A stretch of 64,000 nt of DNA from Motilimonas sp. E26 (GTDB taxonomy: Bacteria; Pseudomonadota; Gammaproteobacteria; Enterobacterales; CBDFNC01). The stretch spans positions 19,851 to 83,850 of the forward strand of contig NZ_JAIBHJ010000007.1 in the NCBI RefSeq assembly GCF_021278025.1, given 5' to 3'. Within the stretch, counting starts at the first letter, position 1. Every line of letters begins with the position of its first letter. The position numbers were made by a program, and so were the translations under genes. The notes below the pieces were generated by a model, which ran no database searches, had not been told where the DNA came from, and saw only the letters and a program-made list of their open reading frames with translations. Positions 35,201 through 52,496 of this stretch are shown piece after piece.

Positions 35201-38200
35201 GATGGTAGCGAATAGGCTTTGAAATGCGCCATCTAAAATAGCGGGATGTAGCATGTGAGTCGAAAGCTGCTCTTGTAATTGAGTTGGTAACTCAATTTTA
35301 ACTAGACTGTCCATATCATCGTGCCAAGCATGTACAACGCCTTGAAAACAATCTAAGTAATTTAAGCCCAGTTGATGACAGTGCTGGTAGAAATCCGCTT
35401 TACTTTGCTGGGCGCCAAGTTGCCCTTTTATCGCAATTAAATCAAAAGTTTGTTGCCCATGTGGTACAACATCATTACTGATGCGACCTTGGCTATACAA
35501 TGACCATTGACCGGAGTCTGGATGACAGGCCGAAATGGTAAATTCTCCCGTCTCTTGTTGATAAACGGTTTCTAAGGTTTGCGTTTGCTTCGGTGAAACA
35601 AAAAATGCGCGCAGGAATGCAATGTTCTCAATACAAAAACCCGCATCACTTGAATCAGGTTGAGATTTAGCCACATTGAGGGCCATTTCAACATAAGCCG
35701 CACCGGGGTAGATAATTTCGTTATCGACTTGGTGATCGATAAGGTAGCTTTGCTCTTGTAAATCTAACTTGTTTTGCCAAAGGGCAGCAGTGGAGGTTAG
35801 TCGGCCACCCAGTAATGGATGTAGGCTGCGCGCAAATGCACCTTGAGGCTGCGTGTTATACAAGCGCGCTTGTTTCACGTCTTCATGCTCTTGCCAATAG
35901 CTTGCATGTTGCCACGCATAATTTGGTAATTGCGCAGGCGATCCCATAGCTTGGTATTGCAGCTGCCAATCAACGTCAACACCATGACAATGTAAACTGG
36001 CTAAGGTATTGGCCAACATTAAGTTATCATCCGCACCGCGTTTCATGGTCGGGATCACGATGCCCGCAACCGCCTTAGCACTTTTAAGGTTTGCTTCGAT
36101 TGAACTTCCTAATGCGGTATGGGGGGCCACTTCAATGTAGCTAGTCAAGCCATCTTGACTCATCGCCTCAATGGCGGCTTTGAATAATACCGGCTCTCGG
36201 ACATTGTCAGCCCAGTAGGCCGCATCCCAATCACCTACTTGCGTTAATTTACCTGAAACCGTTGAATACAGCGGCGTATGCGGCGTTGTCACAACAATAT
36301 CGTTAAGGGCATTGATCAGCGGCGCTTTTAATTGGTCCATCACTGGGCTGTGATAAGGCACACCTACTTTTAGAAATCGCGCAAATATTCCTTTGCTATC
36401 TAATTGATTAAAAATATCCGTTAAGCAGTCCGCATCGCCCGATAGGGTAAGCGCAGTTTCACTATTGATGGCGGCAATGGAAACTTTATCACTAACATTA
36501 GCTAAGTAAGGTGCCACCTCTTGCTCTGTTAGTGCGACGGCGAGCATTTTCCCTTGCCCTTCGGTGGTCTGCTGCAGCTGACTGCGGTGATAGATAACTT
36601 TTACTGCATCGTCAAAACTTAACGCGCCCGCACAATAAGCGGCAGCGACTTCTCCAGCGCTGTGTCCGGCAATAGCGTCGGCTTTAATACCCCAGCTAGC
36701 GAGTAGCGCCACCAGTGAAACTTGAACAGAAAAAATGCCCGGTTGCGCAATTTCAGTATCATAAATAGCATTAGGTTTTGTCTCATCGGCAATCAGCTCA
36801 ACCAATGACCATCCTGTATAGGCTTGTATTGCATCACTACACTTGTCCATCATGGCAGCAAAAACAGGCTCTTTTTGGTATAACTGCATGCCCATTTGCG
36901 GCCAAGTAGTCCCCATGCCTGAGAAGATGAATGCCAAAGGCCCTGAAGCTTGTGGCGTCACTGAATACTGCGCATAATTATTCGCGGGGGTATCGTTAAT
37001 AAAGTCTGCTAGCCCTGCCAATACTTGCACTTTATCTTGACCATTAACCACTAAACGATGTTTAAAGTGCTCGCGACTTAATGCCGCCTCGGCGCAAATG
37101 CTATCAATCGAGACAGCTTCATTTGCGTTAATATGGTTAATAAAAGCCTGTGCTTGTCCTTTCAGCCCTTGGCTTGTTTTAGCACTCAAGCATAAGCTTT
37201 GAATGACTTTAGTGGTTGCATTTTGGTCATTTTTTACAGTGATCTGAGGCGCTTCTTCTAGTACTACGTTTGCATTAGTACCGCCAAAGCCAAATGAATT
37301 GATAATGGCTTTTTTAGTTTGTCCCGGTGCCACAGGCCATGGTTTATTTTCACTGGCGATCTGAACGTTTAACTCGGCTAGATTTATCGCCGGATTAGTG
37401 TTGTGATAATGGATGTTTCTAGGGATCACTCCCCCATTCATCGCCATCACCGTTTTAATTAATCCGGCGACACCTGCTGCTGCCTCGGTGTGGCCAATAT
37501 TGCTTTTTACCGAGCCAATAACACATTGCTCTTGCCCTTGCTGACGTTGCCCTAAAGTCTGCCCGAGTGCATTAACTTCAATGGGGTCACCAACGGCGGT
37601 GCCCGTGCCATGGGCTTCTGCATATTGAATATCGGCACCAGTAAAACCCGCCTTAGCTAATGATTTTTTCAACAGCCGTTGCTGTGCATCGCCATTAGGT
37701 ACGGTTATCCCGCTGGTCTGTCCGTCTTGGTTAACCCCAGAAGCCTTAATTACTGCTAATACATTGTCACCATCTGCGATCGCATCACTGAGTTTTTTAA
37801 CCACCACTAGGCCAGCGCCTTCACTGCGCACATAACCATTGGCAGAGGCATCAAAACTTTTACATTGGCCATCGGGAGACAACATCGATGCTTTACAAAT
37901 CGACATGGTTAACTCAGGGCGAAGTAGAATATTGACACCACCGGCTATCGCGACGCGACTGTCTCCGGTTAACAGGGATTTACAGGCCATGTCTAAGGCG
38001 ACCAATGAAGAAGAGCATGCCGTGTCTAAAGTGACACTTGGCCCAACAAAGTCAAAACAGTAAGAAATGCGGTTAGCGGTCAGGGTCATTGATGGCCCCG
38101 TCGCAGAATGGCTTGCGATCATGCCATGGGCGGCTGAGTCCAGTTGAATTTGCTCATAATCATGCATGAACTGACCGATAAATACGCCTGTGTCACTGCC

Positions 38201-38563
38201 TTTTAACGTCCCCGCTTTTAGTCCTGCATTTTCCAAGGCTTCGTGAGTCAGCTCAAGTAGCCATCGGTGTTGTGGGTCGATATGGGGGGCTTCTATCGGT
38301 GAAATACCAAAAAATTGTGGATCAAATTGGTCTATGTCCGCAATGAAACCACCACGCTTAACATACATGCGGTTAACTTTGTCTTTATCACTGTCGTAAT
38401 AAGAGTTGATGTCCCAGCGATCGGCGGGCACATCAACAATGCCATCGCCACCCGCTAACAAGAAATCATAAAATTGAGAAGGTGAATTTACGCCACCGGG
38501 ATAGCGACATGACATGCCGACAATAGCGATATCATTACTATTTGTATTTTCATTTATGTTCAT
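32201..38563 (-). CDS. type I PKS module: KS-AT-DH-(decayed ER)-KR-ACP
   Basis: A 2120-residue synthase that starts the assembly line. KS (about 8-435) has Cys183 in DTACSSS, His318 in HGTGT and His358 in NIGHTEA. AT (about 543-850) has GHSAG with Ser635 and a PYHSPVMD region more like malonyl than methylmalonyl enzymes. DH (about 915-1185) has His944 and Asp1111, but Asn replaces Gly in HxxxGxxxxP. A region at about 1420-1700 has enoylreductase-like layout but has lost the glycine-rich NADPH motif (HQGTSAAA). KR (about 1750-1925) has GGLGGLG and Ser/Tyr1896. ACP carries Ser2057 in GLNSLM. No loading domain is present, so the starter must come from elsewhere or the module is iterative. The basic C-terminus (RESQKVKVSI) is a probable docking tail. 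Confidence 0.94.
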   Translation of the reverse strand: MNINENTNSNDIAIVGMSCRYPGGVNSPSQFYDFLLAGGDGIVDVPADRWDINSYYDSDKDKVNRMYVKRGGFIADIDQFDPQFFGISPIEAPHIDPQHRWLLELTHEALENAGLKAGTLKGSDTGVFIGQFMHDYEQIQLDSAAHGMIASHSATGPSMTLTANRISYCFDFVGPSVTLDTACSSSLVALDMACKSLLTGDSRVAIAGGVNILLRPELTMSICKASMLSPDGQCKSFDASANGYVRSEGAGLVVVKKLSDAIADGDNVLAVIKASGVNQDGQTSGITVPNGDAQQRLLKKSLAKAGFTGADIQYAEAHGTGTAVGDPIEVNALGQTLGQRQQGQEQCVIGSVKSNIGHTEAAAGVAGLIKTVMAMNGGVIPRNIHYHNTNPAINLAELNVQIASENKPWPVAPGQTKKAIINSFGFGGTNANVVLEEAPQITVKNDQNATTKVIQSLCLSAKTSQGLKGQAQAFINHINANEAVSIDSICAEAALSREHFKHRLVVNGQDKVQVLAGLADFINDTPANNYAQYSVTPQASGPLAFIFSGMGTTWPQMGMQLYQKEPVFAAMMDKCSDAIQAYTGWSLVELIADETKPNAIYDTEIAQPGIFSVQVSLVALLASWGIKADAIAGHSAGEVAAAYCAGALSFDDAVKVIYHRSQLQQTTEGQGKMLAVALTEQEVAPYLANVSDKVSIAAINSETALTLSGDADCLTDIFNQLDSKGIFARFLKVGVPYHSPVMDQLKAPLINALNDIVVTTPHTPLYSTVSGKLTQVGDWDAAYWADNVREPVLFKAAIEAMSQDGLTSYIEVAPHTALGSSIEANLKSAKAVAGIVIPTMKRGADDNLMLANTLASLHCHGVDVDWQLQYQAMGSPAQLPNYAWQHASYWQEHEDVKQARLYNTQPQGAFARSLHPLLGGRLTSTAALWQNKLDLQEQSYLIDHQVDNEIIYPGAAYVEMALNVAKSQPDSSDAGFCIENIAFLRAFFVSPKQTQTLETVYQQETGEFTISACHPDSGQWSLYSQGRISNDVVPHGQQTFDLIAIKGQLGAQQSKADFYQHCHQLGLNYLDCFQGVVHAWHDDMDSLVKIELPTQLQEQLSTHMLHPAILDGAFQSLFATISSAYLPVKIGLINYLRKPTAISYGYLQTKFKDAHEIKGDLYILNEQGETLIELIGVELKANTSQLQDQQATLASTYHYQWLEDKASETTKIAPGHWLVFADEQGVAAALTPQLKALGHQVTNVPYQQQASVELSQQLQVMSQQVTGIIYLWGLNSAINQEQHLSPACDHSTIVPLDAFQGINSVSWKQGLPIYIATQGAYQLPQDECLPRPEQLALWGFSRVLASEHPEYRVSLVDLDIAANEAVINLLTDEVNSQHFEQELSLRESGRFVHRLQRTKHETIAQNQHYIVPMTDTTHYQLGLHHAEQGKTLMPYLAEKPTLLAGNELVIELEKVVLESAQLSSLVESSQTNASKAQVYAVQGRIVTMGAEVSGFSLDEVVVSVTTQPPASSIICRADLVIKAQSRLDLGALKAALINQMTLTSLADEKGTVLVHQGTSAAAIALCQQLTKQGVNVVVTVADTEQRALFNHVDVAGVCESHQTQALADLLQGFAVSQVDAVINFATGPQPLRIAQLIKPAGLFVNLTDSGNVALFNVLQEHDIRYVKLDLATLITHRPRQISQSMQLLQADDNELHQVSAPLETFTLNNLAQVTLQLQQQDSQVLLDLSQRSGKVLKAVPEPVITGEKSYLVTGGLGGLGLEIMAWLAQSGAKSIVLMGRSAPKPDALHAIELVRELGVEVLTLQGDVSQLGDVKRVVEQINGRAYPLGGIIHSAGVLDDATIMQQSHEKYQRVLQPKIQGSWNLHLATQAIELDFFVCFSSIAAVVGWAGQSNYASANAYMDGLCAYRRAQGKPGLSINWGPWAEAGMAANLASEDIKRMNNAGMAALAPDAGLHAMAHLMQSSMAQAGVFDLDWSKIFNQQVNPSQATVFSQFFDLADASQLDDFLGRFNSSEGDEKRQILLEKVTDTLAMVLGLDSSENLEPNVNVFEYGLNSLMGMDLKNRLQASVDLPLPATLILKHPSVDAMTDFILAHASPAQEVAQEAISVVRESQKVKVSI

Positions 38564-40757: not shown

Positions 40758-41168
40758 ATGATTTTGCAAAATATCACCAAGATGCTGGAAGAGGTGCTCG
40801 GCGTAGAGCAACAAGAAATAACCTTAGAGGCGAACTTAGTCGATGACTTAGCTGCGGAATCAATCGATTTCGTCGACATTATTTATGCATTAGAACAAGA
40901 GTATGACCTAACGATTGCGCCTGGCGACATCTTCCCTGCGTTCTTACAGCAAGGGCAATTTCTTAATAGCTCGGGTGAAGTCAGTGATGAAGTACGGAGT
41001 AAGTTAAACAGCCAATGCCCACATCTATCGAGTGCTTGCTTGAGCGAGTTTTATGATAAAAAACAAGCCAGTATATTCTTTAGAGTCAGTGTTCTCGTTG
41101 ACTTTATTGAATATAAACAGAATACCAAAGCGGTTTCTGCTACCCAGCAAACTGCAGAGCTAGCATAA
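40758..41168 (+). CDS. acyl carrier protein with C-terminal extension
   Basis: Carries the growing chain of the type II polyketide synthase. Residues 1-75 form an acyl carrier domain (helix I region ITKMLEEVLGVE, LVDDLAAESIDFVDI) in which the phosphopantetheine Ser is preceded by Glu instead of the usual Asp. About 60 further residues, rich in Ser, Gln and Cys, have no domain I recognise. At 136 residues it is much longer than a housekeeping ACP (about 78). It is the first gene of a continuous coupled operon. Confidence 0.88.
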   Translation: MILQNITKMLEEVLGVEQQEITLEANLVDDLAAESIDFVDIIYALEQEYDLTIAPGDIFPAFLQQGQFLNSSGEVSDEVRSKLNSQCPHLSSACLSEFYDKKQASIFFRVSVLVDFIEYKQNTKAVSATQQTAELA

Positions 41169-41182
41169 AGAAAGGGGTTAAG

Positions 41183-42415
41183 ATGTATCCAACAGATGTT
41201 GTGGTAACAGGCCTAGGTTGCGCCAGTGCTCTAGGTAATAACAGTGAACAAATGTGGCAATCCTTAATTGCTGGATACACTGGCATTAAGCCATTAGTAC
41301 AGCATGATCCTCTGGCCTGCGAACAAGTACATCTGTTAGCAAAATGTCAACAATTGGAATTTTTATCTGGCCACATGGATAAGTGGCCCCTGACTCAAAA
41401 GCAGCTACGCCAAATGTCAACGGTATCCAAGATGCTCTGCCACAGTGCTCTCAATGCCCTAGATCAAGCGAAGCTGTCCTACGACGATATAGCTAATAAT
41501 CTCAAAGTCGGCACCATTATAGGTGCAGGCGTCAATTTGTGTGAGGAGCAAACCAAATTACTACCAGCGCAACGTAACCCTAACTGGCTATTGCAAACTT
41601 ACCCCAACATACACTTGGCCCATTTATCTCGAGTGCTAGGGCTAACTGGGTTTGCAACCACCATAGTAAACGCTTGCACCAGTGCTAGTCAGGCTATAGG
41701 CCAAGGTATGCAGATGATCCGTGCAGGCTTATTAGACATAGCCTTAGTCGGCGGTGCTGATAGTCGTATCTCACCGGCCTTCTTGTCCGGATTCTCACGC
41801 TTGAATATGCTCAGTAAAGGAGCAGACCTTGAGCGAGGTATGCGACCTTTTGATCAACACAGGGATGGATTTGTGTTAGGAGAAGGCGCTGGCGTGTTGA
41901 TATTAGAAAGTGCTCAACATGCATCCCAGCGTGGTGCAAAACCATTAGCACAAGTGCTTGGCTTTGGCTGCAGTCAAGATGCCTATCGCCTAACAGAGCC
42001 TTGCCCTCAAGGCAAGGCCCGCGCCATGGCATTAGCACTACAAGACGCGAGTATCAATGTTAGAGATATCGGCTATATCAATGCCCATGGCACAGCAACG
42101 CAGCAAAATGACTACGCCGAAACCCTTGCGATACAACAAATATTTGGTTCATTAACACCATGGGTGAATTCCAGCAAGGGATTTCTTGGCCATAGCCTCG
42201 CCGCCAGTGGGGCATTAGAGGCAATAGTTTGTATTAAAAGTTTACAACAGCAAATGCTCCACCCCAATCGCCCTTTTACCCAATCAAAAGACACTCCCCC
42301 ACTGACATTAGTGGGAGAGCAAGCTATTTCCTGCAAATTGAATTTTAGTTTATCCAACTCCAGTGCCATTGGTGGGACCAACACCAGTTTAGTTTTTAAG
42401 AGGATAGAAAAATGA
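41183..42415 (+). CDS. beta-ketoacyl-ACP synthase (KS-alpha type)
   Basis: A FabF-like condensing enzyme that elongates an ACP-bound chain by decarboxylative condensation with malonyl-ACP. The catalytic triad is complete: Cys165 in NACTSAS, His302 in AHGTAT and His337 in LGHSLAASG. The length of 410 residues is normal. Its stop overlaps the ATG of the next gene (ATGA), whose product lacks these residues. That pairing is typical of a KS/chain-length-factor heterodimer. Confidence 0.9.
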   Translation: MYPTDVVVTGLGCASALGNNSEQMWQSLIAGYTGIKPLVQHDPLACEQVHLLAKCQQLEFLSGHMDKWPLTQKQLRQMSTVSKMLCHSALNALDQAKLSYDDIANNLKVGTIIGAGVNLCEEQTKLLPAQRNPNWLLQTYPNIHLAHLSRVLGLTGFATTIVNACTSASQAIGQGMQMIRAGLLDIALVGGADSRISPAFLSGFSRLNMLSKGADLERGMRPFDQHRDGFVLGEGAGVLILESAQHASQRGAKPLAQVLGFGCSQDAYRLTEPCPQGKARAMALALQDASINVRDIGYINAHGTATQQNDYAETLAIQQIFGSLTPWVNSSKGFLGHSLAASGALEAIVCIKSLQQQMLHPNRPFTQSKDTPPLTLVGEQAISCKLNFSLSNSSAIGGTNTSLVFKRIEK

Positions 42416-43683
42416 GTGAGATTGACCGGATTGTTATTTCTGGCATCGGCGCATTAACCCCGTTAGGCGCAGATATCAATGAGCACCTTGCCGCCCACCA
42501 GCAAGGTGAGTCCTGTTTACGGGCCAAGCACGAACTACCGTTTTTACAAGGCGATGTTTCTGAGTCCAATATAAAACAATGGATCCCAGATAAAAAGTCT
42601 TGCCGAATGCTCACCCGTCAAGGTTTACTGGGGATTGCCAGTGCTACTTTAGCTTTAAACAAAGCACAGCTCAGTACCAGTGAACTCGCGGAACAAGACC
42701 AACTTAACGGCGTTATCTACGGCGCTTTTTATAGTCAAGGTGTGCTCAATGCTGCTCAGCCTTACCTTAATGCACTCGATAACTCAGATACCATTGATTA
42801 CCAGGCATTTGGCGATCGCCACTATCGCGAATTTCCACCACTGTGGATCTTACCGCGTCTGCCCAACACCACCGGCGGTCAGATCTCGATTCAATATGGC
42901 CTGCGGGGACTCAGTTACAGCGTGGTAAATGGCCCCGCTGGCGGCATGATCTCAGTGGGTGAAGCCTTAGAATGCATACAAGACGGCAGGGCCCGTCGCT
43001 TTGTTACTGGTGCATCAGAAATGGATCCGACTATTGAGCAGCTCTTTGCGCTCGATCAACTCGGCGTGCTTGCCACACAGACGCCATCAAAAGCGGGCTT
43101 GACCATCAGTGAAGCGGGTGTGAGTTTTATTGTTGAGCCCCTTGCCCTTGCTCAATCGCGCCAAGTATCAAATAGCATTGAACTGGTTGCTTATGAAAAT
43201 AGCTATATTCCGCACATTCTCACTCTTTCTGAAGCGGAGCTTGAACAAAAAGTCAGAGCCCACTTTTTACGTACACTCGATAAAGCGGAACTATCACCCC
43301 AAGAGATCAGCGCTATTCAATTAACTATGGCCGGGATCCCTGCCCTTGACCAAAGTGAAGCGAAGGCAACGCAGCAGGTATTTCGCGCAACCGTTCCGGT
43401 GCTTTGCGCCACTGATTACTCTGGCTTTGCATTAGGTGCAGCCGCGGCTACTAACCTCTTTTATGCTTGCTTGCAGCTGCAACATCAGTACTTAGCACCG
43501 GTGTTAAACCAAGCCAAGAAACCGCTTATCGGACAACTTAATTACCAACAAAAATGTCAATTAGATGCCGGTATTACCACCCTCTTTTGCCATCACATTG
43601 ACCATCTTGGTAACCAAGTCAGTCTAATTTTGCGTACCACAGCACACCATCGCGCACCCCATCTCAAGCAGGAGCTAATATGA
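42412..43683 (+). CDS. ketosynthase-like protein without active site (chain-length-factor type)
   Basis: Thiolase-fold protein of 423 residues with recognisable ketosynthase ends (VISGIGALTPLG, and a Gly-rich C-terminal segment) but with all three catalytic positions lost. The nucleophile region reads VVNGPAGG (Pro175 where Cys would be), there is no HGT motif, and the second His region reads DYSGFALGAAAA. It most likely pairs with the KS encoded just upstream and sets chain length, as chain-length factors do in type II polyketide and aryl-polyene synthases. It is coupled by ATGA overlaps on both sides. Confidence 0.82.
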   Translation: MSEIDRIVISGIGALTPLGADINEHLAAHQQGESCLRAKHELPFLQGDVSESNIKQWIPDKKSCRMLTRQGLLGIASATLALNKAQLSTSELAEQDQLNGVIYGAFYSQGVLNAAQPYLNALDNSDTIDYQAFGDRHYREFPPLWILPRLPNTTGGQISIQYGLRGLSYSVVNGPAGGMISVGEALECIQDGRARRFVTGASEMDPTIEQLFALDQLGVLATQTPSKAGLTISEAGVSFIVEPLALAQSRQVSNSIELVAYENSYIPHILTLSEAELEQKVRAHFLRTLDKAELSPQEISAIQLTMAGIPALDQSEAKATQQVFRATVPVLCATDYSGFALGAAAATNLFYACLQLQHQYLAPVLNQAKKPLIGQLNYQQKCQLDAGITTLFCHHIDHLGNQVSLILRTTAHHRAPHLKQELI

Positions 43684-44978
43684 AAAGAGTAGTTATTACA
43701 GGCATGGGCGCAGTCAGTGCCTTTGGCACCGGTACCGAGCGACTTTGGCAAGCCTTGTTGGCCGGTAAAAATGGCATTACCCAGATATCGCACTTGCCAT
43801 TACAAGGTGACATTGTTGCCATTGGCGCCGCTATTCCAAACTTAGAAAAAGAAATACAGGCCATTCCTAAGCTGGCTGCGATGCGAACGTTAGATCCATC
43901 GATCAAGTCGTTCTTTCTGGCAGTACATGAAGCGGTCGAACAAGCAAAACTTGATTTTACAACCCTTAATTTGGCAAAAGTGGCGACCATGATAGCCGAT
44001 CGGCCTTTTTCGCCTACCAGCTTAATGGCGCAATTTTTGCCTTCTATTAAACAAAGTCTCACTAATGAAAACATTGCCAGCCTTTCGCCCTTGCAATACT
44101 GGCAGGCATTGCAAAATGATAACGAGTTAAAACATCGCTATCGCTGCGATGAACGCGACAGCATTAATCACTTTATCGCCCGTTATTACCAACTAACAGG
44201 CCCTGCCCTAAGTATTGGCACTGCGTGTGCTTCCGGTAACAATAGTATCGGTGAAGCATTTGAAAAAATTCGTCATGGCCGATTAGACTGCGCGTTAGCC
44301 GGTGGCGCCTACGATTTTGATATGAATTCAATGGTTGGCTTTACCCGCATTGGCGCGTTAAGCACTCATGACAACCCTGATACTGCGTGTCGACCTTTTG
44401 ATGCTAGGCGCAGTGGCTTTGTCATGGGTAGCGGCTGCGGCGTGTTAATTATGGAATCTCTTGAACATGCCCACGCACGCGGCGCCAATATCCTGTGTGA
44501 AGTCACAGGTTATGCTTCTTATTCAGATGGCTATCGCGCCACTGACCCCGACCCTTCCGGTATGGGCGCTCAGCGCACCTTACGCGGCGCATTAGCTACT
44601 GCGCAGTTAGCGCCAGAGCAAATTGGTTACATTAACGCCCATGGCACCTCAACCACAATGAATGATAAAACCGAGACCAATGCCATTAAAGCCGTGTTTG
44701 GTGAACATGCCTACCAGCTGCCTATTTCCTCCACTAAATCGATGATCGGTCATGGCATTATGGCCGCAGGTGCGCTAGAGGCCATGGCTTGCATCAATGC
44801 GCTACGCGATCAGACGATACATGGTACCCGTAATTATCAGCAGCGCGATCCTGAGCTTGATCTTGACTATGTTGCTGAAGGAGCTCGTCAGTTAACACTG
44901 AACCATGTTCTGTCTAACAACTTTGGCTTCGGCGGACAAAACGCCAGCGTGATCTATTCCCGATTTGTGGCGCAATAA
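43680..44978 (+). CDS. second active beta-ketoacyl-ACP synthase
   Basis: A FabB/FabF-like enzyme of 432 residues with a complete triad: Cys183 in TACASGNNS, His321 in AHGTST and His358 in MIGHGIMAAGALEA. An extra stretch before the nucleophile (about 100-165) makes it distinct from the first KS. A third KS beside a KS/CLF pair is also seen in aryl-polyene clusters. Here it may start the chain or do a late elongation; which one is not visible. Confidence 0.88.
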   Translation: MKRVVITGMGAVSAFGTGTERLWQALLAGKNGITQISHLPLQGDIVAIGAAIPNLEKEIQAIPKLAAMRTLDPSIKSFFLAVHEAVEQAKLDFTTLNLAKVATMIADRPFSPTSLMAQFLPSIKQSLTNENIASLSPLQYWQALQNDNELKHRYRCDERDSINHFIARYYQLTGPALSIGTACASGNNSIGEAFEKIRHGRLDCALAGGAYDFDMNSMVGFTRIGALSTHDNPDTACRPFDARRSGFVMGSGCGVLIMESLEHAHARGANILCEVTGYASYSDGYRATDPDPSGMGAQRTLRGALATAQLAPEQIGYINAHGTSTTMNDKTETNAIKAVFGEHAYQLPISSTKSMIGHGIMAAGALEAMACINALRDQTIHGTRNYQQRDPELDLDYVAEGARQLTLNHVLSNNFGFGGQNASVIYSRFVAQ

Positions 44979-44988
44979 GGAAAGCCTG

Positions 44989-45945
44989 ATGAAAAGTACT
45001 TTAGTCGCATTATCAAAGCTCAATATCAGCGAATCAGCAAAAGAGATTGTTGCGGATGTCTGGCTTGATTTAAGCCAACATCGATACCTTTATTCTCATA
45101 AATTAAATAATCAAGTCGTGATCCCCAGTGTGTTCTTACTAGAAATGGGTCTAGGCGTATTATCTCGTACATCATTTGGGGAGGAGTTGACGCAAGCCTC
45201 AGCCAAGCAGCAAAGCTTGTGTTGGCAAAATATCACCGCACCGCGATTGGCTTATCTGATTGGTCAAACTAAGCAACACCTTCAGGTACATTGGCGGCCC
45301 ATGGAAAATGGTTTAGTGTTGACTATTTGTTATGACAAGTTAAATGAGCAAGGGCAATGTGTTAGGCCAGCCTTAACGGTATTAAGCGCAGAGTTACTGC
45401 TACCAGGCTTGAATTCAAAAAGCGCTGCAGATGAACCACGCAATGTAACAACACCGACCACAGAAGAAATAACCAATGCCTACCTAATACCTAGACAAGT
45501 AATTGACGACTATAAAGATCTATCGCCAGGTAAACTCGGTATTTTATTTTGTACCTTAGAATTTCGTTATTATTGGCAGCAGCAAAAACACTGCCTCTGG
45601 GCTTATTCTGATATTAGCAACAGCGCCCAATATTGCTTTAGTAGCGAATCAGACCCCTGCTTTGTCAGCCCTGTTTTGGCCTGCATGTCAGCTATCCAAC
45701 ATTTGCCTTTTTATGGTTATTTACAAGGCCAAGTCGCGATCCCAGCCAGTATAGACCAAATAACCTACCTTCCCGGTTGGCAAAATAAAGATAACAATCA
45801 GGGTAAACTCATCAGCCAAATCACGCCATCCAATAAACCACACCACGTCGATATTTTGCTAATGAGACAAGATAACCTCCATCCGATAGCGCTATTAACT
45901 GGCTATCAGTTACTACCAAAAGTCACTGCAAGGAGCGCCGCATGA
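44989..45945 (+). CDS. PKS-type dehydratase-like protein, probably inactive
   Basis: A 318-residue protein with the layout of a polyketide dehydratase double hotdog. The first motif SHKLNNQVVIP has His37 and Pro46 at the right spacing with Asn at the Gly position. In the second hotdog, where catalytic Asp is expected after SPV, the sequence is LACMSAIQ with no acid, so dehydration is unlikely. It may be a structural partner of the two following dehydratases. Start chosen at the ATG with AAGGAA 6 nt upstream, not the earlier in-frame GTG at 44965. It overlaps the next gene by ATGA. Confidence 0.68.
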   Translation: MKSTLVALSKLNISESAKEIVADVWLDLSQHRYLYSHKLNNQVVIPSVFLLEMGLGVLSRTSFGEELTQASAKQQSLCWQNITAPRLAYLIGQTKQHLQVHWRPMENGLVLTICYDKLNEQGQCVRPALTVLSAELLLPGLNSKSAADEPRNVTTPTTEEITNAYLIPRQVIDDYKDLSPGKLGILFCTLEFRYYWQQQKHCLWAYSDISNSAQYCFSSESDPCFVSPVLACMSAIQHLPFYGYLQGQVAIPASIDQITYLPGWQNKDNNQGKLISQITPSNKPHHVDILLMRQDNLHPIALLTGYQLLPKVTARSAA

Positions 45946-46982
45946 AGCAATGGTTCTTTGTACACTTTGCGCAACATCTTCAGCAAAGTTCAGAGCAGTT
46001 AAGTTTTGAATGGCTGATTGACCCACAGCAACAAGTGTTTTTGCAACATCATATTTTCTCTGGTCAATGCTTAGTTCCCGCAGCAATTTCAGCGGAGCTG
46101 TGTGTTCAAGCCGCAATGCAGTTTGCGCAACTTACGCCACAAGTAAACCCTGTACAAATACGTTATCCGAAGATCACCATCGAGTCATTTAATATTAAAC
46201 GGCCACTTGCCTTAGCAAGTAATGAGCAGATCCGACTGTTTATTAGCGCGACACACGTTAAGGGGGGGGGTTATAAGGTATCACTGCGGCGCCATCTATA
46301 TCATGCCAATGGTAAGTTGTTACGGCATAATGTGTTGGTTGCACAAAGTGTTATTCAGATTTCAACGGCCATACCGACAACAACAGAACGACCTTATTTA
46401 TCTCAATTGAACAGTATGAGTAAGGCGCTTTATCAATCGTTCGATTTTGGCCAAGCTAACTACTATAAGTTGATCAACCCCAGCCACGGCGATCTTTTTC
46501 AAAGCTTGACTGGTAAGTGTACGTTATCTACGGACCAACAATGGCTGGTATCTGAATTTAATATTGAAGATAAAGAGCAGCGCTACAGTCACATTGATGA
46601 TCTACCTTTTGTTTGTTCACCCTTGGCAATAGATAGCGTACTGCAGGCGTGTGTACTGAGCTGCATCCAAGTTGAGAGCAAACGGCATGAAGATTTTTTC
46701 AGCAAATTGCCGGTTGCGATGAGCCAGGTGCAGTTTTTTCAACCGTTTCAATTCAATCATCTCTATCAATGCATGTTGAATTTGGTCTCGCTCGATGACC
46801 AGACTCAGGTTTTGCGTGCGTGGGTAAAAGATCAGCAAGGTCAGCTCATTGCTTACTTTGACTCCATTACTTTACACCGTGCGCCTAATGAGCGCCGCCT
46901 TGCTTGTCAATTTGAGCGTGACTACCACCGATTTTTATTAACAGATCAACAAAGCAAACCTGATGTGGAGGTTTTATGTTAA
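45942..46982 (+). CDS. stand-alone PKS-type dehydratase (first active copy)
   Basis: A 346-residue double-hotdog protein predicted to remove water from beta-hydroxyacyl-ACP. It has the exact HxxxGxxxxP motif (HIFSGQCLVP, His37, Gly41, Pro46) and the second catalytic motif SPLAIDSVLQ with Asp231 and Gln235. Such domains are usually part of type I PKS or PUFA synthases; here it is separate. A run of eight G (46262-46269) encodes part of KGGGYKV and could be prone to slippage. GGAG precedes the ATG, and it overlaps the next gene by 7 nt. Confidence 0.75.
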   Translation: MKQWFFVHFAQHLQQSSEQLSFEWLIDPQQQVFLQHHIFSGQCLVPAAISAELCVQAAMQFAQLTPQVNPVQIRYPKITIESFNIKRPLALASNEQIRLFISATHVKGGGYKVSLRRHLYHANGKLLRHNVLVAQSVIQISTAIPTTTERPYLSQLNSMSKALYQSFDFGQANYYKLINPSHGDLFQSLTGKCTLSTDQQWLVSEFNIEDKEQRYSHIDDLPFVCSPLAIDSVLQACVLSCIQVESKRHEDFFSKLPVAMSQVQFFQPFQFNHLYQCMLNLVSLDDQTQVLRAWVKDQQGQLIAYFDSITLHRAPNERRLACQFERDYHRFLLTDQQSKPDVEVLC

Positions 46983-48115
46983 GTATAAAAAACAAACAGC
47001 GCTTAAATAGATGGCTAGATGGCGCAAAACAAGGCTTGAATCAGCAATCCCGTGGCATTAAATACAAATGGCCAAATACACCCGGCCAGCCAAGTCAAGA
47101 AACCATTAGCCAAGTTAGCCTGCCACTACTTGAAGGGGCAGTGGTGCATTGGGATAAACACGGCTTATGTCAGTTCCATTGCCGTATTAATGAACAACAT
47201 TCGCCTTACTTACGCCATCACCGCTTTCCGATGGGCGACATCATGCCTGCTACGGCTGTCTTAGAATACTTTGTTGAAGCCGCGTCATGGTTACAGCAAA
47301 AAAGCCATGGTCACCAGCAATGGTATCCACTACAGGTGAGTCAACTGAAGCTTGACCGCGTCTTAATATTGCCTCAAGGCTCATCTGCAGTCGATCTTCA
47401 AATTCATGTTAACAAGCGTTTTATTGGTCCCCATGGCCATGAAATCCAGCTTAGCTTGCATAGCCCGCGATTTAACAAGCAAGGTAAGTACCTTGGCCTA
47501 AAATGCCATGCTTATGTCACAATTGGTTTTGACCCCAGCGTACGCGCAATCAACAAAGTACCACTGCTGAATGGCTTAGTTCACCACTATCAGACCACTG
47601 AACAACAAATATACACAAAAGTACTCACCAGCCACGGTGAAAAAATGCAAAGTATTACTGGTGAACTGTATATCAATGAGGAACGAAATCAGATCCTCGC
47701 TTCTTATGATTGCCAAAACAAGGAAACCACTTGGTTAAATAGCGGTAATGGCCACTTTGTCTTATCACCTTTAGGCTTAGATTCCTGCTTGCAGCTGCTG
47801 TGTTTTCTCGCGATTTTGCAAGATGGGCTGCCCAGATTACCGGTATTTATTGGCCAACTTAACCTGTATCGCGCGCATCCAATGGATCAGCCTTGTCGCG
47901 CCTTGATCGAATTAGTGCAACAAGACGTGGGTAAAACCGAAGCCAAAGTGACCGTTTTTGATCAACACAACCGAATCGTTTTCGATGTAAAACAAGCTAT
48001 CGCACAAAGCCATCAAGGGGGCGCGTTTGATCTTAGCTTGTTTGAGCGCTGGCTTGAAAACATCTTAGTGGCAGCCCATGTAGAAGAGACAAGTACAACA
48101 GGGGAACAGCAATGA
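46976..48115 (+). CDS. stand-alone PKS-type dehydratase (second copy)
   Basis: A 379-residue relative of the preceding gene product with a longer N-terminus. His82 and Pro91 keep the spacing of the dehydratase motif (HRFPMGDIMP), with Gly one place later than normal. The second motif is SPLGLDSCLQ with Asp269 and Gln273. Both catalytic residues are present, so activity is likely. Having three related dehydratase-like genes in a row suggests different chain lengths or a heteromeric complex. GGAGG lies 4 nt before the ATG, and the stop overlaps the next start (ATGA). Confidence 0.72.
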   Translation: MLSIKNKQRLNRWLDGAKQGLNQQSRGIKYKWPNTPGQPSQETISQVSLPLLEGAVVHWDKHGLCQFHCRINEQHSPYLRHHRFPMGDIMPATAVLEYFVEAASWLQQKSHGHQQWYPLQVSQLKLDRVLILPQGSSAVDLQIHVNKRFIGPHGHEIQLSLHSPRFNKQGKYLGLKCHAYVTIGFDPSVRAINKVPLLNGLVHHYQTTEQQIYTKVLTSHGEKMQSITGELYINEERNQILASYDCQNKETTWLNSGNGHFVLSPLGLDSCLQLLCFLAILQDGLPRLPVFIGQLNLYRAHPMDQPCRALIELVQQDVGKTEAKVTVFDQHNRIVFDVKQAIAQSHQGGAFDLSLFERWLENILVAAHVEETSTTGEQQ

Positions 48116-49044
48116 AATTTAATGCCACCCAATCGCCCCATTTACCGCTGCAATATAATTTAAAAGGTAACCAGGCATCGAAGATAACCTTAGTCTTTCT
48201 AAATGGGCTCTTTCATGGCGAAGCATCTTGGATCAAGCAGCAACGTTATCAAGGCTTTCAAAACTACAAGCAATTGTTCCTCGATTATCCTGGCTGTGGC
48301 GGTAATCAACTCAGTAGCCAGCAACAAGATTTTACTTTTAGTGATATTGCTAATGCCATCACAGAGCTGCTCCAATACCTATCCCTTGAGCGGGTGATCT
48401 TAGTAGGTTATTCCCTCGGCGGCATGCTCGCCCTTGAAATGGCCAAACAGTGGCCAGCGCAAACGGCGCAGCCTAATCTCCATACTCCTCATCTAGAAAA
48501 AATAGTGTTAATAAACAGCGCTGACCGGATCAGTATCAAGGGCCAATGGATGATGAAAAATGTGCAGCAGTTGCTCAACCTAGATATTCCTCTCCCGACC
48601 CTTTTTAGCCAAGTTTACCCTTGGTTTTTCAGTGATGAATATCTGCTTAAACTCGATAGTATGAGTGATTACGTATTACAAAGTTACGCCAACTACAACC
48701 AAGACAGCCAAGGCTTAACGGCATTTTTGCACGCTTGTCATCGCCGCCAAAATTGTGATGGGAGCACTCGCCAATCTACGCCTGCGCAACCGAATGAGCA
48801 GGCTGTGCTCAGCATTCCGATGTTGCTGATAACGTGCAGTGGCGATCCTTTATTTCCACCTAGCATTACTACTGTTTTTTGCCAGCAAAGCGCAAACATT
48901 ACCCAGATCGATCTTGAGCTGCAATCCCATGTTGCCAATCTTGAAGCCGCCGTAGCTGTGAATCGACACATCGAACAATTTATTCCAGAACAATCGCCAC
49001 TTGAACAAACACTAATAGGAGCGACCCATGCAGCCATCCTCTAA
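48112..49044 (+). CDS. alpha/beta hydrolase, possible chain-release thioesterase
   Basis: A 310-residue alpha/beta hydrolase with nucleophile Ser101 in GYSLGG, an oxyanion-side LNGLFHGEASW, an acid candidate in CSGDPLFPP and a His candidate in LQSHVANLE. There is no signal peptide. In this operon it could hydrolyse or transfer the finished chain from the ACP, or edit wrong chains. The specific role is inferred from context only. It overlaps the next gene by 17 nt. Confidence 0.72.
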   Translation: MKFNATQSPHLPLQYNLKGNQASKITLVFLNGLFHGEASWIKQQRYQGFQNYKQLFLDYPGCGGNQLSSQQQDFTFSDIANAITELLQYLSLERVILVGYSLGGMLALEMAKQWPAQTAQPNLHTPHLEKIVLINSADRISIKGQWMMKNVQQLLNLDIPLPTLFSQVYPWFFSDEYLLKLDSMSDYVLQSYANYNQDSQGLTAFLHACHRRQNCDGSTRQSTPAQPNEQAVLSIPMLLITCSGDPLFPPSITTVFCQQSANITQIDLELQSHVANLEAAVAVNRHIEQFIPEQSPLEQTLIGATHAAIL

Positions 49045-49531
49045 TATTCCGATTCAGCTTCGCAGTTATCGAGGAGCCAGTCTCATGGCTCAACTCGATA
49101 TTAATTTAACTGAAGCGCCTTTGCCCATTGAACCATTGAATCAATTATGTGCGCAAGATGGACTGACGTCATTACATGTATTGGTTGACGCCAGCCAAGG
49201 AGAACCCGCTTTGCTAGAGCAATTATTTGTTTTATTACAAGGCCTGTATCGACCATTAATGCGTGGTAACAACAAACAGGTTTGGGTGGTTTGGCAGCGC
49301 AGCCGTGAGTCGATAATTAGAGCGGGCGCTCAGGCGTTATGCCAAATTGCTGCATTAGAGTTGGCACGTAAAGGGGTGAGCATTAATTTTATTCACCAAC
49401 GTTACGCTTTGTCAGATCAGCAGCGGCAATGCCTGCTACATTGGCAGTTTGCTCATTACTGCACCGCGCAAGCCTTTTCACTGCCAGAAGCCCCATTATC
49501 GCAATTAGAGAAACGAGAGGAGTTATTATGA
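49028..49531 (+). CDS. short degenerate ketoreductase-like protein
   Basis: A 167-residue protein that I recognise only weakly. The segment AGAQALCQIAALELARKGVSINFIHQ resembles the helix and strand that follow the catalytic Tyr-Lys of short-chain dehydrogenases, but the glycine-rich cofactor loop and the Tyr-xxx-Lys pair are absent. It is coupled by ATGA overlap to a complete ketoreductase. It may be a structural half, like the non-catalytic subdomain of type I PKS ketoreductases, or a decaying copy. GGAG lies 7 nt before the ATG. Confidence 0.55.
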   Translation: MQPSSNIPIQLRSYRGASLMAQLDINLTEAPLPIEPLNQLCAQDGLTSLHVLVDASQGEPALLEQLFVLLQGLYRPLMRGNNKQVWVVWQRSRESIIRAGAQALCQIAALELARKGVSINFIHQRYALSDQQRQCLLHWQFAHYCTAQAFSLPEAPLSQLEKREELL

Positions 49532-50253
49532 AAACGGTATTAATTACTGGAGCATCGAGAGGCATCGGCAGTGCCATGGCAAGTTATTTTGCTAAGCAAG
49601 GTTATCGAGTTTTGATTAACGTACGACAGCAAAATCAGCACAGTGATGCGCTGCTACAAACGATAAAGCAGCAAGGCGGCAAAGCAGAGCTGGCGATATT
49701 TGATATCACCGATAAGCTCGCGCGCGAACAATACATGCAGCAATGCCCCTCCCTTGATGTATTAATCAACAATGCCGGATGCTTAGCCGATAACTTATTG
49801 GTGCAAACGCCATTAACAGATTGGCAACGTTGCATGGCTACCAATTATGAGGCCAGTTGCGCATTGTTTGAGTTGGCAAAACCGCACTTACTAAAATCGA
49901 AACAGGGTTGCGTAATCAATATGGCCAGTATTTCTGGGGTTCGTCCACGTGCAGGGCAAAGTGCTTATAGCGTCACTAAAAGCATGTTGATTGCATGGAC
50001 TCATTGGCTTGCACAGCAATACCCACAAATAAACAGTTTTGCAATTTCACCGGGGCCAGTAGCAACCGACATGATCGTTAACGCACCTTGGTATCAGGAA
50101 AAAAACGCGTTTAATCGGATCCCCTTACGCCGTTTTTGCCAGCCGGAGGAGATCGCCCATGCCGCATATTGCTTAGCGACCCACCCAATGATCCACTCGG
50201 GAGAAAATTTGATTATTGATGGTGGTTATACCCAAACAACACAAACCGCCTAA
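49528..50253 (+). CDS. 3-oxoacyl-ACP reductase (FabG-like)
   Basis: Reduces beta-ketoacyl-ACP with NADPH. This 241-residue short-chain dehydrogenase has TGASRGIG (7-14), NNAG (81-84), a catalytic Ser in NMASISG near 134, and Tyr147 and Lys151 in SAYSVTK. The start is the ATG at 49528, which has GAGGAG 6-7 nt upstream and overlaps the previous stop by ATGA. With ketosynthases, dehydratases and no enoylreductase in the operon, repeated reduction and dehydration would leave conjugated double bonds. Confidence 0.9.
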   Translation: MKTVLITGASRGIGSAMASYFAKQGYRVLINVRQQNQHSDALLQTIKQQGGKAELAIFDITDKLAREQYMQQCPSLDVLINNAGCLADNLLVQTPLTDWQRCMATNYEASCALFELAKPHLLKSKQGCVINMASISGVRPRAGQSAYSVTKSMLIAWTHWLAQQYPQINSFAISPGPVATDMIVNAPWYQEKNAFNRIPLRRFCQPEEIAHAAYCLATHPMIHSGENLIIDGGYTQTTQTA

Positions 50254-50265
50254 GGAGTAATCGAT

Positions 50266-50988
50266 ATGCTTCAATCTGTGATCAACTGCAACCATCTTAA
50301 TGCCAATGCATCGCCTCCCCTTTCGCCAGGCGTTATTAACCTTTACTATGCGATTATTGATAATAATACCGATAACGACAATACAACCCAACAACAGTTA
50401 GCCAGAGTGGCTTTAACTCAAGATCAGTGGCTAAAAGTAAGGGAAAAAACCAATGCCACCCGTCTGCAATTTATTAAGCAACGAGTCATGCTTAATCAAG
50501 TGTTAAAGCGGCACCTTGCAGGCCAAGAGCTTGAATTTGAATGGGGTCCAGTTGGTAAACCATCGGTTAAAAATAGTGCGATTGAATTTAACCTGTCACA
50601 CTGCGCTGAGATCATGATGATCGCCGTTAGTAATGCTAATCCGCTGGGCTTGGACATTTGCCAGCATCACTTTAGTGCCGCTAAAGTGAGGCGACTTTCT
50701 GAAATATGCTTAACCTCTGACGAGCTACATCGACAAAACGATCCTGAATATTTTTATGATAGGTGGGCCTTAATGGAATCTTGGTTAAAAGCCAGCGGCG
50801 TAGGATGGATAAAAGGTATTAGGGAGCTTGCATCTCATGTTTTTGACGCAGGTAATTTATACAGTTACTTAATACCACTAGCCAAGCATGACTTGGCGCA
50901 GTTATCACCGCAAAAACTGAGTATTGCGCTGACTGCACAGCAAGAAGTTAAACACGTTAATTTAATTCACTGGCCGATTCAACATTAA
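50266..50988 (+). CDS. Sfp-type 4'-phosphopantetheinyl transferase with altered metal motif
   Basis: A 240-residue transferase likely to activate the operon's own ACP. It has GPVGKPS and FNLSHC (CoA-binding region), GLDIC with Asp130, and DRWALMESWLKASG with Glu171 and Lys175. The second acidic metal ligand usual in GxDxE is Cys132 here, which may change metal use or activity. GGAG precedes the ATG at good distance. Presence of a dedicated transferase beside an unusual ACP supports specialised priming. Confidence 0.85.
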   Translation: MLQSVINCNHLNANASPPLSPGVINLYYAIIDNNTDNDNTTQQQLARVALTQDQWLKVREKTNATRLQFIKQRVMLNQVLKRHLAGQELEFEWGPVGKPSVKNSAIEFNLSHCAEIMMIAVSNANPLGLDICQHHFSAAKVRRLSEICLTSDELHRQNDPEYFYDRWALMESWLKASGVGWIKGIRELASHVFDAGNLYSYLIPLAKHDLAQLSPQKLSIALTAQQEVKHVNLIHWPIQH

Positions 50989-51002
50989 GGAAGACCGTAT
51001 TA

Positions 51003-52496
51003 ATGACCCCTGTTCACTATCGATTTTTTAACATCCTAATCGCCGCGACTTCGGGGGCATTAATGGGCTTGTCGATGCCAGGACATAACGTAGGTTATTT
51101 AGCCTGGTTTGCCTTGGTGCCAGTTCTGATCTTGATACAGCTGCGTCCTGAAGTAAAACCTTTTCGCTTACTGCTGCCAGCAACCATTATCTGGTCTTGG
51201 CTCGCTCATGGCTGGTTTCAAGATTTATTCGGCGCCATCATTGGCAGTCTTTTAATGATCGGGGTGGGCTTCTTCTTTGCCCGCGTTATCCATTGGGGGA
51301 TCGTACTCAGTCGTCATTGTCGGCCGATATTGAGCCTATTTGCCCTTCCCCTTGCTTGGTGTAGCGTTGAGTTTTTGCGTTATGTGTTACCTTATTTGGA
51401 AGATATTTGGTTTGTATTGATTGCCAAAAGCCAGTGGCAACAAACCGATTTGTTACAAATATTGTCGATTACCGGATTTGTCGGCGTGAGCTTTTTAGTT
51501 GTGCTCAGTAATACCGCCATCACGCAACTGATACTGACTATTTGGCAGCGCAAAGCCATACATAAACCCGCAATAGCTTGCCTAATATTGATTGCTGGTT
51601 TGGCATACTGGGGCCAGCAGAAAATTCCCGCAAACGTGCCCGCTACAGTTAATATTGCCGCGACGGTAGACTTAACCAATCAAGACCCCAGTATCCAAAA
51701 TTTAGCGCTCAAACCCATGGATGGTGAAGGCTATTGGGCCGATACCCAAGTCATGTCTCAAGCTATTTTTGATGTTAATGCCGCACTGACCAAGACATTA
51801 CCGCAACCTGCTAATTTTATTGTCTGGCCTGAAAATGAAATGGCCACCATTGACAACCCAGTGATTGTTTCACAATTACAAGCCTTAGCACGCCAACAAA
51901 ACAGTTATCTTGTGGCTGATTTGGTGTGGCGAGAAGGGGAAAATCAATACGATACCGCGGTGATGTTTGACCCTGAAGGTAATGAGGTATTAAGAGCGCC
52001 AAAAATCGCAATTACATTCCGAGAAAAACAATTCGGTTTCACTCCCGGTAAAGTGCAAGACATGAAAGTAGTGGCAACGCCATTTGGCAATGTCGGCCTT
52101 GGCGTATGCTTTGATCGCCATCGATTGTGGATTTCTCGCGCCTTAAAACAGCACGGCGCTGATATTATCTTAATGCCCGTTGATGATGATTTTAAAGGCA
52201 ATAAGCAGCTGCCCTTGCTGCACGCTACTGACAGCATCTTTCGCGCGATTGAAAATCGCGTGACCTATGGCTTGGGTACCACCAGTGGAGTAAGCATGGT
52301 GATCAACCCATTCGGCCAAGTGACTGCGCGCAGCCAGTTTAACCAACGGGAAGTGATCCAAGGAACAAGTAGCATTCACCCCGAGTCAACCTTTTACAGT
52401 CGTAACGGTGACATCCTCGCCTGGCTAATGTGCTTACTCACATTAGCTATTATCATCGACACAAGGCGGAGATTTAAGTTAAAGGGTAAGGATTAA
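51003..52496 (+). CDS. apolipoprotein N-acyltransferase (Lnt) homologue in polyketide operon
   Basis: An inner-membrane acyltransferase of 497 residues. About six N-terminal membrane segments (residues 8-205) precede a periplasmic nitrilase-fold domain (about 215-470) and a last membrane segment near 475-490. The Lnt triad is present: Glu277 in VWPENEM, Lys334 in APKIAI and Cys369 in GVCFDRH. Classical Lnt N-acylates lipoproteins in the periplasm. As the last gene of a type II polyketide operon (15 nt after the transferase gene), it more likely transfers the polyketide or polyene acyl group to an amine or lipid acceptor. It could also be a second copy of housekeeping Lnt, but the sequence looks divergent from it. 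Confidence 0.82.
   Translation: MTPVHYRFFNILIAATSGALMGLSMPGHNVGYLAWFALVPVLILIQLRPEVKPFRLLLPATIIWSWLAHGWFQDLFGAIIGSLLMIGVGFFFARVIHWGIVLSRHCRPILSLFALPLAWCSVEFLRYVLPYLEDIWFVLIAKSQWQQTDLLQILSITGFVGVSFLVVLSNTAITQLILTIWQRKAIHKPAIACLILIAGLAYWGQQKIPANVPATVNIAATVDLTNQDPSIQNLALKPMDGEGYWADTQVMSQAIFDVNAALTKTLPQPANFIVWPENEMATIDNPVIVSQLQALARQQNSYLVADLVWREGENQYDTAVMFDPEGNEVLRAPKIAITFREKQFGFTPGKVQDMKVVATPFGNVGLGVCFDRHRLWISRALKQHGADIILMPVDDDFKGNKQLPLLHATDSIFRAIENRVTYGLGTTSGVSMVINPFGQVTARSQFNQREVIQGTSSIHPESTFYSRNGDILAWLMCLLTLAIIIDTRRRFKLKGKD

Follow-up and report, generated by a model that had tools for sequence, protein, structure and literature searches.

The window, a 64,000-nucleotide stretch of DNA from Motilimonas sp. 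E26, a member of a marine genus, carries a 12-gene polyketide operon. Its last gene encodes a membrane nitrilase that resembles apolipoprotein N-acyltransferase (Lnt), which attaches the final fatty acid to bacterial lipoproteins, but has no Lnt lid loop. We propose with moderate confidence that this Lnt-like enzyme is dedicated to a late step in a dissociated (type II-like) ketosynthase/chain-length-factor (KS/CLF) pathway, where its task would be to finish, anchor or unmask the polyketide and not to mature lipoproteins. Judged by its sequence, it is most likely a periplasm-facing membrane acyltransferase or amidase. The 12 co-directional genes span 40758 to 52496 on the plus strand, with ends that overlap or nearly touch; the Lnt-like gene starts 14 bp after the phosphopantetheinyl transferase gene. 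Motif positions, picked by eye, were compared across four Motilimonas genomes. The operon consists of the following genes:

40758-41168, plus strand: acyl carrier protein (ACP), PP-binding domain, Ser in an AES motif in 4/4 genomes
41183-42415, plus strand: ketosynthase 1 (KS1), Cys-His-His motifs kept in 4/4
42412-43683, plus strand: chain-length-factor-like ketosynthase (CLF), without Cys/His/His at the motif positions in 4/4
43680-44978, plus strand: ketosynthase 2, Cys-His-His motifs kept in 4/4
44965-45945, plus strand: degenerate PKS-dehydratase-like protein (DH1), PKS_DH_N at 23.8 bits, below the 27-bit cut-off, without the catalytic His and Asp in 4/4
45942-46982, plus strand: PKS-type dehydratase (DH2), His and DxxxQ kept in 4/4
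46976-48115, plus strand: PKS-type dehydratase (DH3), His and DxxxQ kept in 4/4
48112-49044, plus strand: alpha/beta hydrolase, possibly a release thioesterase, GYSLGG elbow, His and Asp kept in 4/4
49028-49531, plus strand: small protein without a Pfam or NCBIfam match, by eye like a degenerate C-terminal part of a short-chain dehydrogenase/reductase (SDR)
49528-50253, plus strand: ketoreductase-type SDR (KR), YxxxK in 4/4
50266-50988, plus strand: phosphopantetheinyl transferase (PPTase), ACPS-superfamily domain
51003-52496, plus strand: lid-less Lnt-like membrane nitrilase, 497 aa, LNT_N and CN_hydrolase domains, E277, K334, E341 and C369

By domains and motifs, the active KS, Cys-less CLF, ACP, KR and DH form a dissociated KS/CLF polyketide synthase set. 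No enoyl reductase or malonyl acyltransferase gene was found among the 12 genes and, by established type II logic, KR and DH activity without an enoyl reductase would yield an unsaturated, perhaps polyene, acyl chain. The operon genes include no lipid acyltransferase, and no exporter or flippase either, though the active site of the Lnt-like enzyme is predicted to be periplasmic. No solved-structure match was found for DH2, DH3 or the small protein, and a BLASTP comparison of the small protein with the operon KR was not significant (E 3.8). DH1 is kept in 4/4 genomes despite the loss of both catalytic residues, and may serve DH2 or DH3 as a structural partner. A promoter and terminator scan was uninformative, with 20 promoter-like sites against 29.9 expected and 17 terminator-like sites against 14.7 expected.

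The earlier note on this DNA had read the Lnt-like gene as the end of a secondary-metabolite operon, and the comparison within the genus bears this out. The Lnt-like gene is present in all four Motilimonas genomes examined (identity to the window protein 92% in M. cestriensis, 61% in M. eburnea and 55% in M. pumila), and the operon has the same genes in the same order in 4/4, with the Lnt-like gene always last. The flanks vary, both being replaced in M. pumila and the upstream one being different in M. eburnea; the Lnt-like gene is tied to the polyketide operon in all four genomes. As the gene and the gene order are conserved in all four genomes, they are not a product of chance. With a dN/dS of 0.11 against M. 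cestriensis, the Lnt-like gene is under purifying selection and lies within the range of ten other operon genes (0.04-0.23, ACP excluded).

A hybrid PKS/NRPS cluster on the minus strand (12115-39942) adjoins the operon and also includes PPTase, thioesterase and MFS genes. Its large synthases are:

32201-38563, minus strand: type I PKS (Pfam), KS-AT-DH-KR-ACP
22449-32204, minus strand: NRPS with three modules
16123-22452, minus strand: NRPS with an embedded pyridoxal-dependent decarboxylase domain

Both the window and M. cestriensis have this cluster. In M. eburnea and M. pumila it is absent from the approximately 18 kb that precede the operon, and it is therefore not part of the operon unit. 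The middle NRPS is 3251 aa long in the window and 2202 aa in M. cestriensis (L090), perhaps through the gain or loss of a module.

The Lnt-like protein exceeds the Pfam cut-offs for LNT_N (57.6 bits, E 2.2e-15; cut-off 27.1) and CN_hydrolase (65.1 bits, E 8.1e-18; cut-off 23.2), and thus has the Lnt-type architecture. It scores 102.8 bits against TIGR00546, the NCBIfam Lnt equivalog, below the cut-off of 132.9, as do the three Motilimonas orthologues (94.6, 95.8 and 108.8 bits); as controls, the housekeeping Lnt of the same genome, E. coli Lnt and a divergent Lnt-side row (L084) score 307.5, 411.1 and 190.5 bits. In a hydropathy profile, N-terminal membrane segments are followed by a hydrophilic part of 265 residues, a last helix at 469-487 and a C-terminal tail, RRRFKLKGKD, in which 6 of 10 residues are K or R. 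E. coli Lnt has a similar profile, as has the orthologue from M. eburnea; in the M. pumila orthologue, the last helix was left uncalled by this simple scan, which gives no firm helix count. By the positive-inside rule, the nitrilase domain is predicted to face the periplasm.

We anchored the residue alignment on E. coli Lnt (NC_000913, b0657), with E267, K335 and C387 verified by numbering. The catalytic counterparts in the Lnt-like protein are E277, K334 and C369, plus E341 in the E343 column as the counterpart of the 'fourth' catalytic residue of Lnt, and all are kept in 4/4 orthologues; the E341/E343 match needs a one-residue gap, the K-to-E spacing being 7 in the Lnt-like protein against 8 in E. 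coli Lnt. The Glu-Lys-Cys triad lies inside the CN_hydrolase domain, as in the nitrilase superfamily. Alignment, Pfam and hydropathy thus agree with the earlier note that the Glu277-Lys334-Cys369 triad and the membrane layout of Lnt are kept.

The spacing within this site is different. The Lys-to-Cys distance is 35 in 4/4 Motilimonas Lnt-like proteins. All 33 canonical-type Lnt rows have 51-52, and five divergent Lnt-side rows 48-53; the spacing is 31-34 in seven stand-alone relatives described below and 34 in four GNAT-nitrilase rows. In E. coli numbering the absent residues are those at about 345-365, the lid loop that E343 and C387 bracket, and the spacing of 35 rather than 51-52 means that the membrane lid loop is gone. 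In the available parts of two E. coli Lnt studies, this loop is described as an amphipathic arm resting on the membrane as a cover over the active site, and the lid loop, F416, Y388, E389 and E343 are reported to be important (PMC5500890, PMC6971011). In the four orthologues, W415 is replaced by F and F416 by K or R, and the CYE motif reads CFD (CYD in M. eburnea), i.e. Y388 to F and E389 to D; Y388 itself is not absolute, being F in 3/33 canonical-type rows. Counterparts of R139 and W148 are present. The W237 column holds T, S, Q or A in the orthologues, and an invariant W245 in a nearby family-specific insertion could substitute for W237.

The two half-reactions of Lnt have been dissected in E. 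coli. E267, K335 and E343 serve acyl-enzyme formation on C387, according to the available part of one source (PMC8048626), and the inactive mutants V339A, Y388W and E389A retained acyl-enzyme formation in the available text of another, in which a figure legend also gives E389A as reported inactive earlier (PMC5500890). With these two descriptions, E389 is no clean marker of the second step. W237 and F358 are described as required for the second step only, in the part available of PMC6971011. On this comparison of residues, the Lnt-like enzyme should probably form an acyl-enzyme yet acylate no lipoproteins.

Comparisons with solved structures point partly to amidases. A PDB profile search matched 20 solved sequences, with the soluble nitrilase PH0642 first at 7.9e-12 and seven Lnt sequences at 1.8e-4 to 4e-4, and the loop K334-IAITFREKQFGFTPG of the Lnt-like protein aligns with PH0642. 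AlphaFold2, given the Lnt-like protein and its three orthologues, returned a low-confidence model (mean pLDDT 54.4, pTM 0.47), so the structural matches weigh only weakly: Foldseek placed Lnt at each of its first 18 ranks (TMq 0.44-0.48, rmsd 10.0-11.1), and VIA, with a model of mean pLDDT 54, aligned 204 residues with an amidase (Z 18.1, rmsd 3.3), which may reflect the alpha-beta-beta-alpha fold of the nitrilase superfamily. The best 50 VIA matches were nitrilase-superfamily hydrolases with Lnt not among them, which excludes nothing. The nitrilase half of the model thus appears, weakly, closest to soluble amidases. The catalytic half is no closer to acyltransferases than to hydrolytic amidases, so an amidase role may be considered. 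The genome also encodes two fusions of GNAT and carbon-nitrogen hydrolase domains (L005, 718-2349, and L006, 1423-2949), both without LNT_N.

The lnt gene usually lies in the order ybeX-lnt-leuS, with miaB, ybeZ and lptE around it. A second LNT_N gene of the Motilimonas sp. E26 genome, 21% identical to the Lnt-like protein, occupies this place: the translations read around it are miaB, phoH-like ybeZ, ybeY, corC/ybeX, lnt, leuS and lptE, and the lnt-ybeX-ybeY part of this context is annotated in E. coli NC_000913. The Lnt-like gene is therefore an extra, non-housekeeping copy and not the only lnt of the genome, which would have spoken against the earlier note. All four Motilimonas genomes carry two LNT_N genes, the context of the housekeeping copy having been read in the E26 genome only. 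A second Lnt-like gene is not rare in itself: of 114 class genomes, 8 (E26 among them) show a pair of LNT_N matches that lie on different contigs in open frames of 280 aa or more, and four more have a short second LNT_N frame. Among such second copies in other class genomes, four Lnt-like proteins of 660-710 aa (L078, L082, L083 and L086) have a Lys-Cys spacing of 32 and keep Glu after the Cys motif (CYE or CFE).

For the phylogeny, 84 matches were reduced to 57 rows by dropping 7 single-domain nitrilases, L051 and L064 (<400 aa) and 18 identical copies. The 33 canonical-type rows are made up of E. coli Lnt, the four Motilimonas copies and 28 loci out of the 30 with the best LNT_N scores; the 30 loci were drawn from 104 genomes with a match, a choice that favours typical Lnt, and 'housekeeping' status is by context in the E26 genome and by annotation in E. 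coli only. In the tree, the four operon-encoded proteins come together (100/100) at the end of a long branch, and this clade groups with the seven stand-alone membrane nitrilases (97/78) away from the canonical-type rows (split support 96/69), subject to an unsettled bootstrap, long branches and uneven composition. In AU tests, with groups defined after the tree was seen, a single clade of the Lnt-like proteins and the four housekeeping Lnt of the genus was rejected (p 0.0019), as was a grouping with the 33 canonical-type rows when five divergent Lnt-like rows were left out (p 0.0055); with all 38 Lnt-side rows, including the five very divergent ones, there was no rejection (p 0.188). The suggestion that the protein would stand apart from the housekeeping enzymes in a tree thus holds with respect to the Lnt of its own genus, while a place on the Lnt side together with the five divergent rows is allowed. 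The Lnt-like gene is thus not a recent duplicate of the housekeeping Lnt, and its deep root may lie on the Lnt side or outside it.

The seven stand-alone relatives (L024, L026, L028, L030, L031, L080 and L081) all exceed the cut-offs for LNT_N and CN_hydrolase. They are membrane nitrilases on Blastomonas fulva and Streptomyces plasmids, annotated 'nitrilase-related carbon-nitrogen hydrolase', and in G323, G358, G630, G783 and G841. Like the Lnt-like protein, they have the short K-C spacing (31-34), Asp for E389 (7/7) and, in 4/4 scanned of the seven, a TIGR00546 score below the cut-off; the two plasmid proteins differ from it in being only about 24-26% identical. Near 17 Lnt-like loci (the seven stand-alone ones and ten others, 3.6-25 kb), the operon KS1, CLF, KS3, DH2, DH3 and ACP gave no tblastn match at E 1e-3. 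L018 and L019 served as positive controls: both are matched by the KS, CLF and DH queries, and L019 alone by the ACP query, the L018 stretch beginning after the ACP. As the nearest relatives stand alone, this kind of protein has no built-in polyketide link.

Broader searches returned the same picture. A profile of the Lnt-like protein matched 4/295 order genomes at E 1e-30, and 3/369 class genomes and 5/398 phylum genomes at E 1e-12, the E26 genome being counted in both of the latter. At E 1e-8, a DH3 profile matched only the E26 genome among the 369 class genomes and only the four genus genomes among 295 order genomes, those four included. By tblastn, DH3 had no match in 72,556 plasmid records, and CLF gave generic KS/CLF matches of <60% identity in 367 plasmid records. 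A DNA-pattern scan of genome contigs returned 3 loci, all from Motilimonas. The pairing of an Lnt-like gene with a polyketide operon has so far been seen only in Motilimonas; the genomes are drawn samples with few first-look candidates scored in each, so the operon may exist elsewhere.

For the proposed late polyketide step, Cys369 would form a thioester acyl-enzyme at the periplasmic face, with an acyl chain that the enzyme would draw from the membrane. The chain would then be handed to a small amine-bearing product or another non-lipoprotein acceptor or, were the enzyme an amidase, be taken from it. A changed acceptor is suggested by the loss of the parts that close the active site and join in the acceptor step. 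A more specific version, which we put forward only tentatively, is that the lid-less Lnt scaffold is a membrane amide synthase that forms a polyene acyl-enzyme and transfers the chain to a small or envelope amine. The strongest rival to an acyl transfer, given the amidase-like catalytic half, is pure unmasking: a membrane-bound periplasmic amidase, with no acyltransferase activity, that would activate a prodrug or deprotect a precursor by taking off its capping group after export. ClbP-type steps are a functional parallel for such activation. The alignment of the loop after K334 with PH0642, the replacement of C-Y-E by C-F-D, the nearness of the K-C spacing of 35 to the 34 of the four GNAT-nitrilase rows and the amidases that head the structural match list of the predicted model all speak for it, and an open active site would let water in. 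No condensing step that could supply an amide cap is evident in the operon, however, and the neighbouring NRPS/PKS cluster is missing from the upstream stretch in 2/4 genomes, so that we regard a pure amidase as possible rather than probable.

The earlier note had instead suggested a polyketide-bearing lipid as donor and a lipoprotein or amine as acceptor; in this model the enzyme would N-acylate lipoproteins or a surface amine with the chain of a polyketide-bearing phospholipid. The acyl-enzyme residues, the Lnt-type membrane domain and the operon link all fit this, but the lid loop and several active-site residues are lost, a housekeeping Lnt is present and the operon has no lipid acyltransferase gene. 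A lipoprotein acceptor in particular is disfavoured, as some of the differing residues are reported as needed for the acceptor step in the available parts of the E. coli studies (PMC5500890, PMC6971011); we consider this model unlikely. Still less likely is self-resistance, in which the pathway product would inhibit Lnt and the Lnt-like copy would be a resistant spare. Lnt has been discussed as an antibiotic target and the lsp genes (LspA homologues) that accompany the myxovirescin (antibiotic TA) pathway are a precedent, both according to the part available of PMC8048626, but a spare must do the housekeeping job, and the Lnt-like protein is 21% identical to the housekeeping enzyme and without a lid. 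A copy of the LspA/myxovirescin type is accordingly unlikely. The gene could finally be transcribed with the operon as a mere passenger and encode an orphan membrane amidase whose role has nothing to do with the polyketide, as its seven nearest relatives elsewhere lie apart from such operons. We think this improbable, since it is always the last gene of the same operon in 4/4 genomes, at 55-92% identity, even where both flanks have been replaced in M. pumila.

A dedicated late polyketide step is our preferred reading. With E. coli Lnt (b0657; TIGR00546) it shares LNT_N, a nitrilase domain before the last helix, a basic tail, the E-K-E-C tetrad and the R139/W148 counterparts, but it differs in the missing lid loop, the changed active-site residues, the score below the equivalog cut-off, the 21% identity to its own housekeeping copy and a polyketide operon context in place of ybeX-lnt-leuS. 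The nearest description recognised in the open-licence literature, as far as its text was available, is Zmn15 of the zeamine cluster, likewise a nitrilase-superfamily gene in a gammaproteobacterial pathway that includes a KS-CLF protein; no paper found in that literature was recognised as describing a polyketide operon with an Lnt-like gene. Zmn15 is given, in the available part of its paper, as a YafV-like carbon-nitrogen hydrolase and putative branch 13 nitrilase in a PUFA-synthase-like PKS/NRPS cluster, with no specific role assigned to it there, and unlike the Lnt-like protein it has only 259 aa, too short for an Lnt-type membrane domain (PMC3547906). Aryl polyene clusters, in the available text of PMC8253772 and PMC8358021, resemble the operon as Gram-negative polyene pathways with a dissociated KS and a KS-CLF pair, but the Motilimonas operon has PKS-type DH genes and a terminal Lnt-like gene; 'apolipoprotein N-acyltransferase' occurs in neither paper. 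A polyketide pathway ended by an Lnt-type amide synthase was not found in the available open-licence literature, and the available part of the Motilimonas genome paper (PMC13182010) has no mention of antiSMASH, polyketide, NRPS or biosynthetic gene cluster.

The acyl-enzyme and acceptor roles of Lnt have been studied by point mutants, and the Motilimonas clade is a natural experiment in which the acyl-enzyme residues are kept and the lid is removed. If the enzyme acts on the polyketide, this would be a case of an Lnt-type enzyme taken over for the tailoring of natural products at the membrane. In genome mining, genes of this type, which are readily labelled 'lnt', would then point to a class of pathway steps.

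Synonymous divergence from M. cestriensis is uneven along the operon. The three DH genes have a dS of 1.15-1.67 and KS1 has one of 0.78, against 0.16-0.47 in CLF, KS3, the hydrolase, the small protein, KR, PPTase and the Lnt-like gene. This mosaic of 44965-48115 and the rest of the operon suggests that the DH block has undergone recombination.
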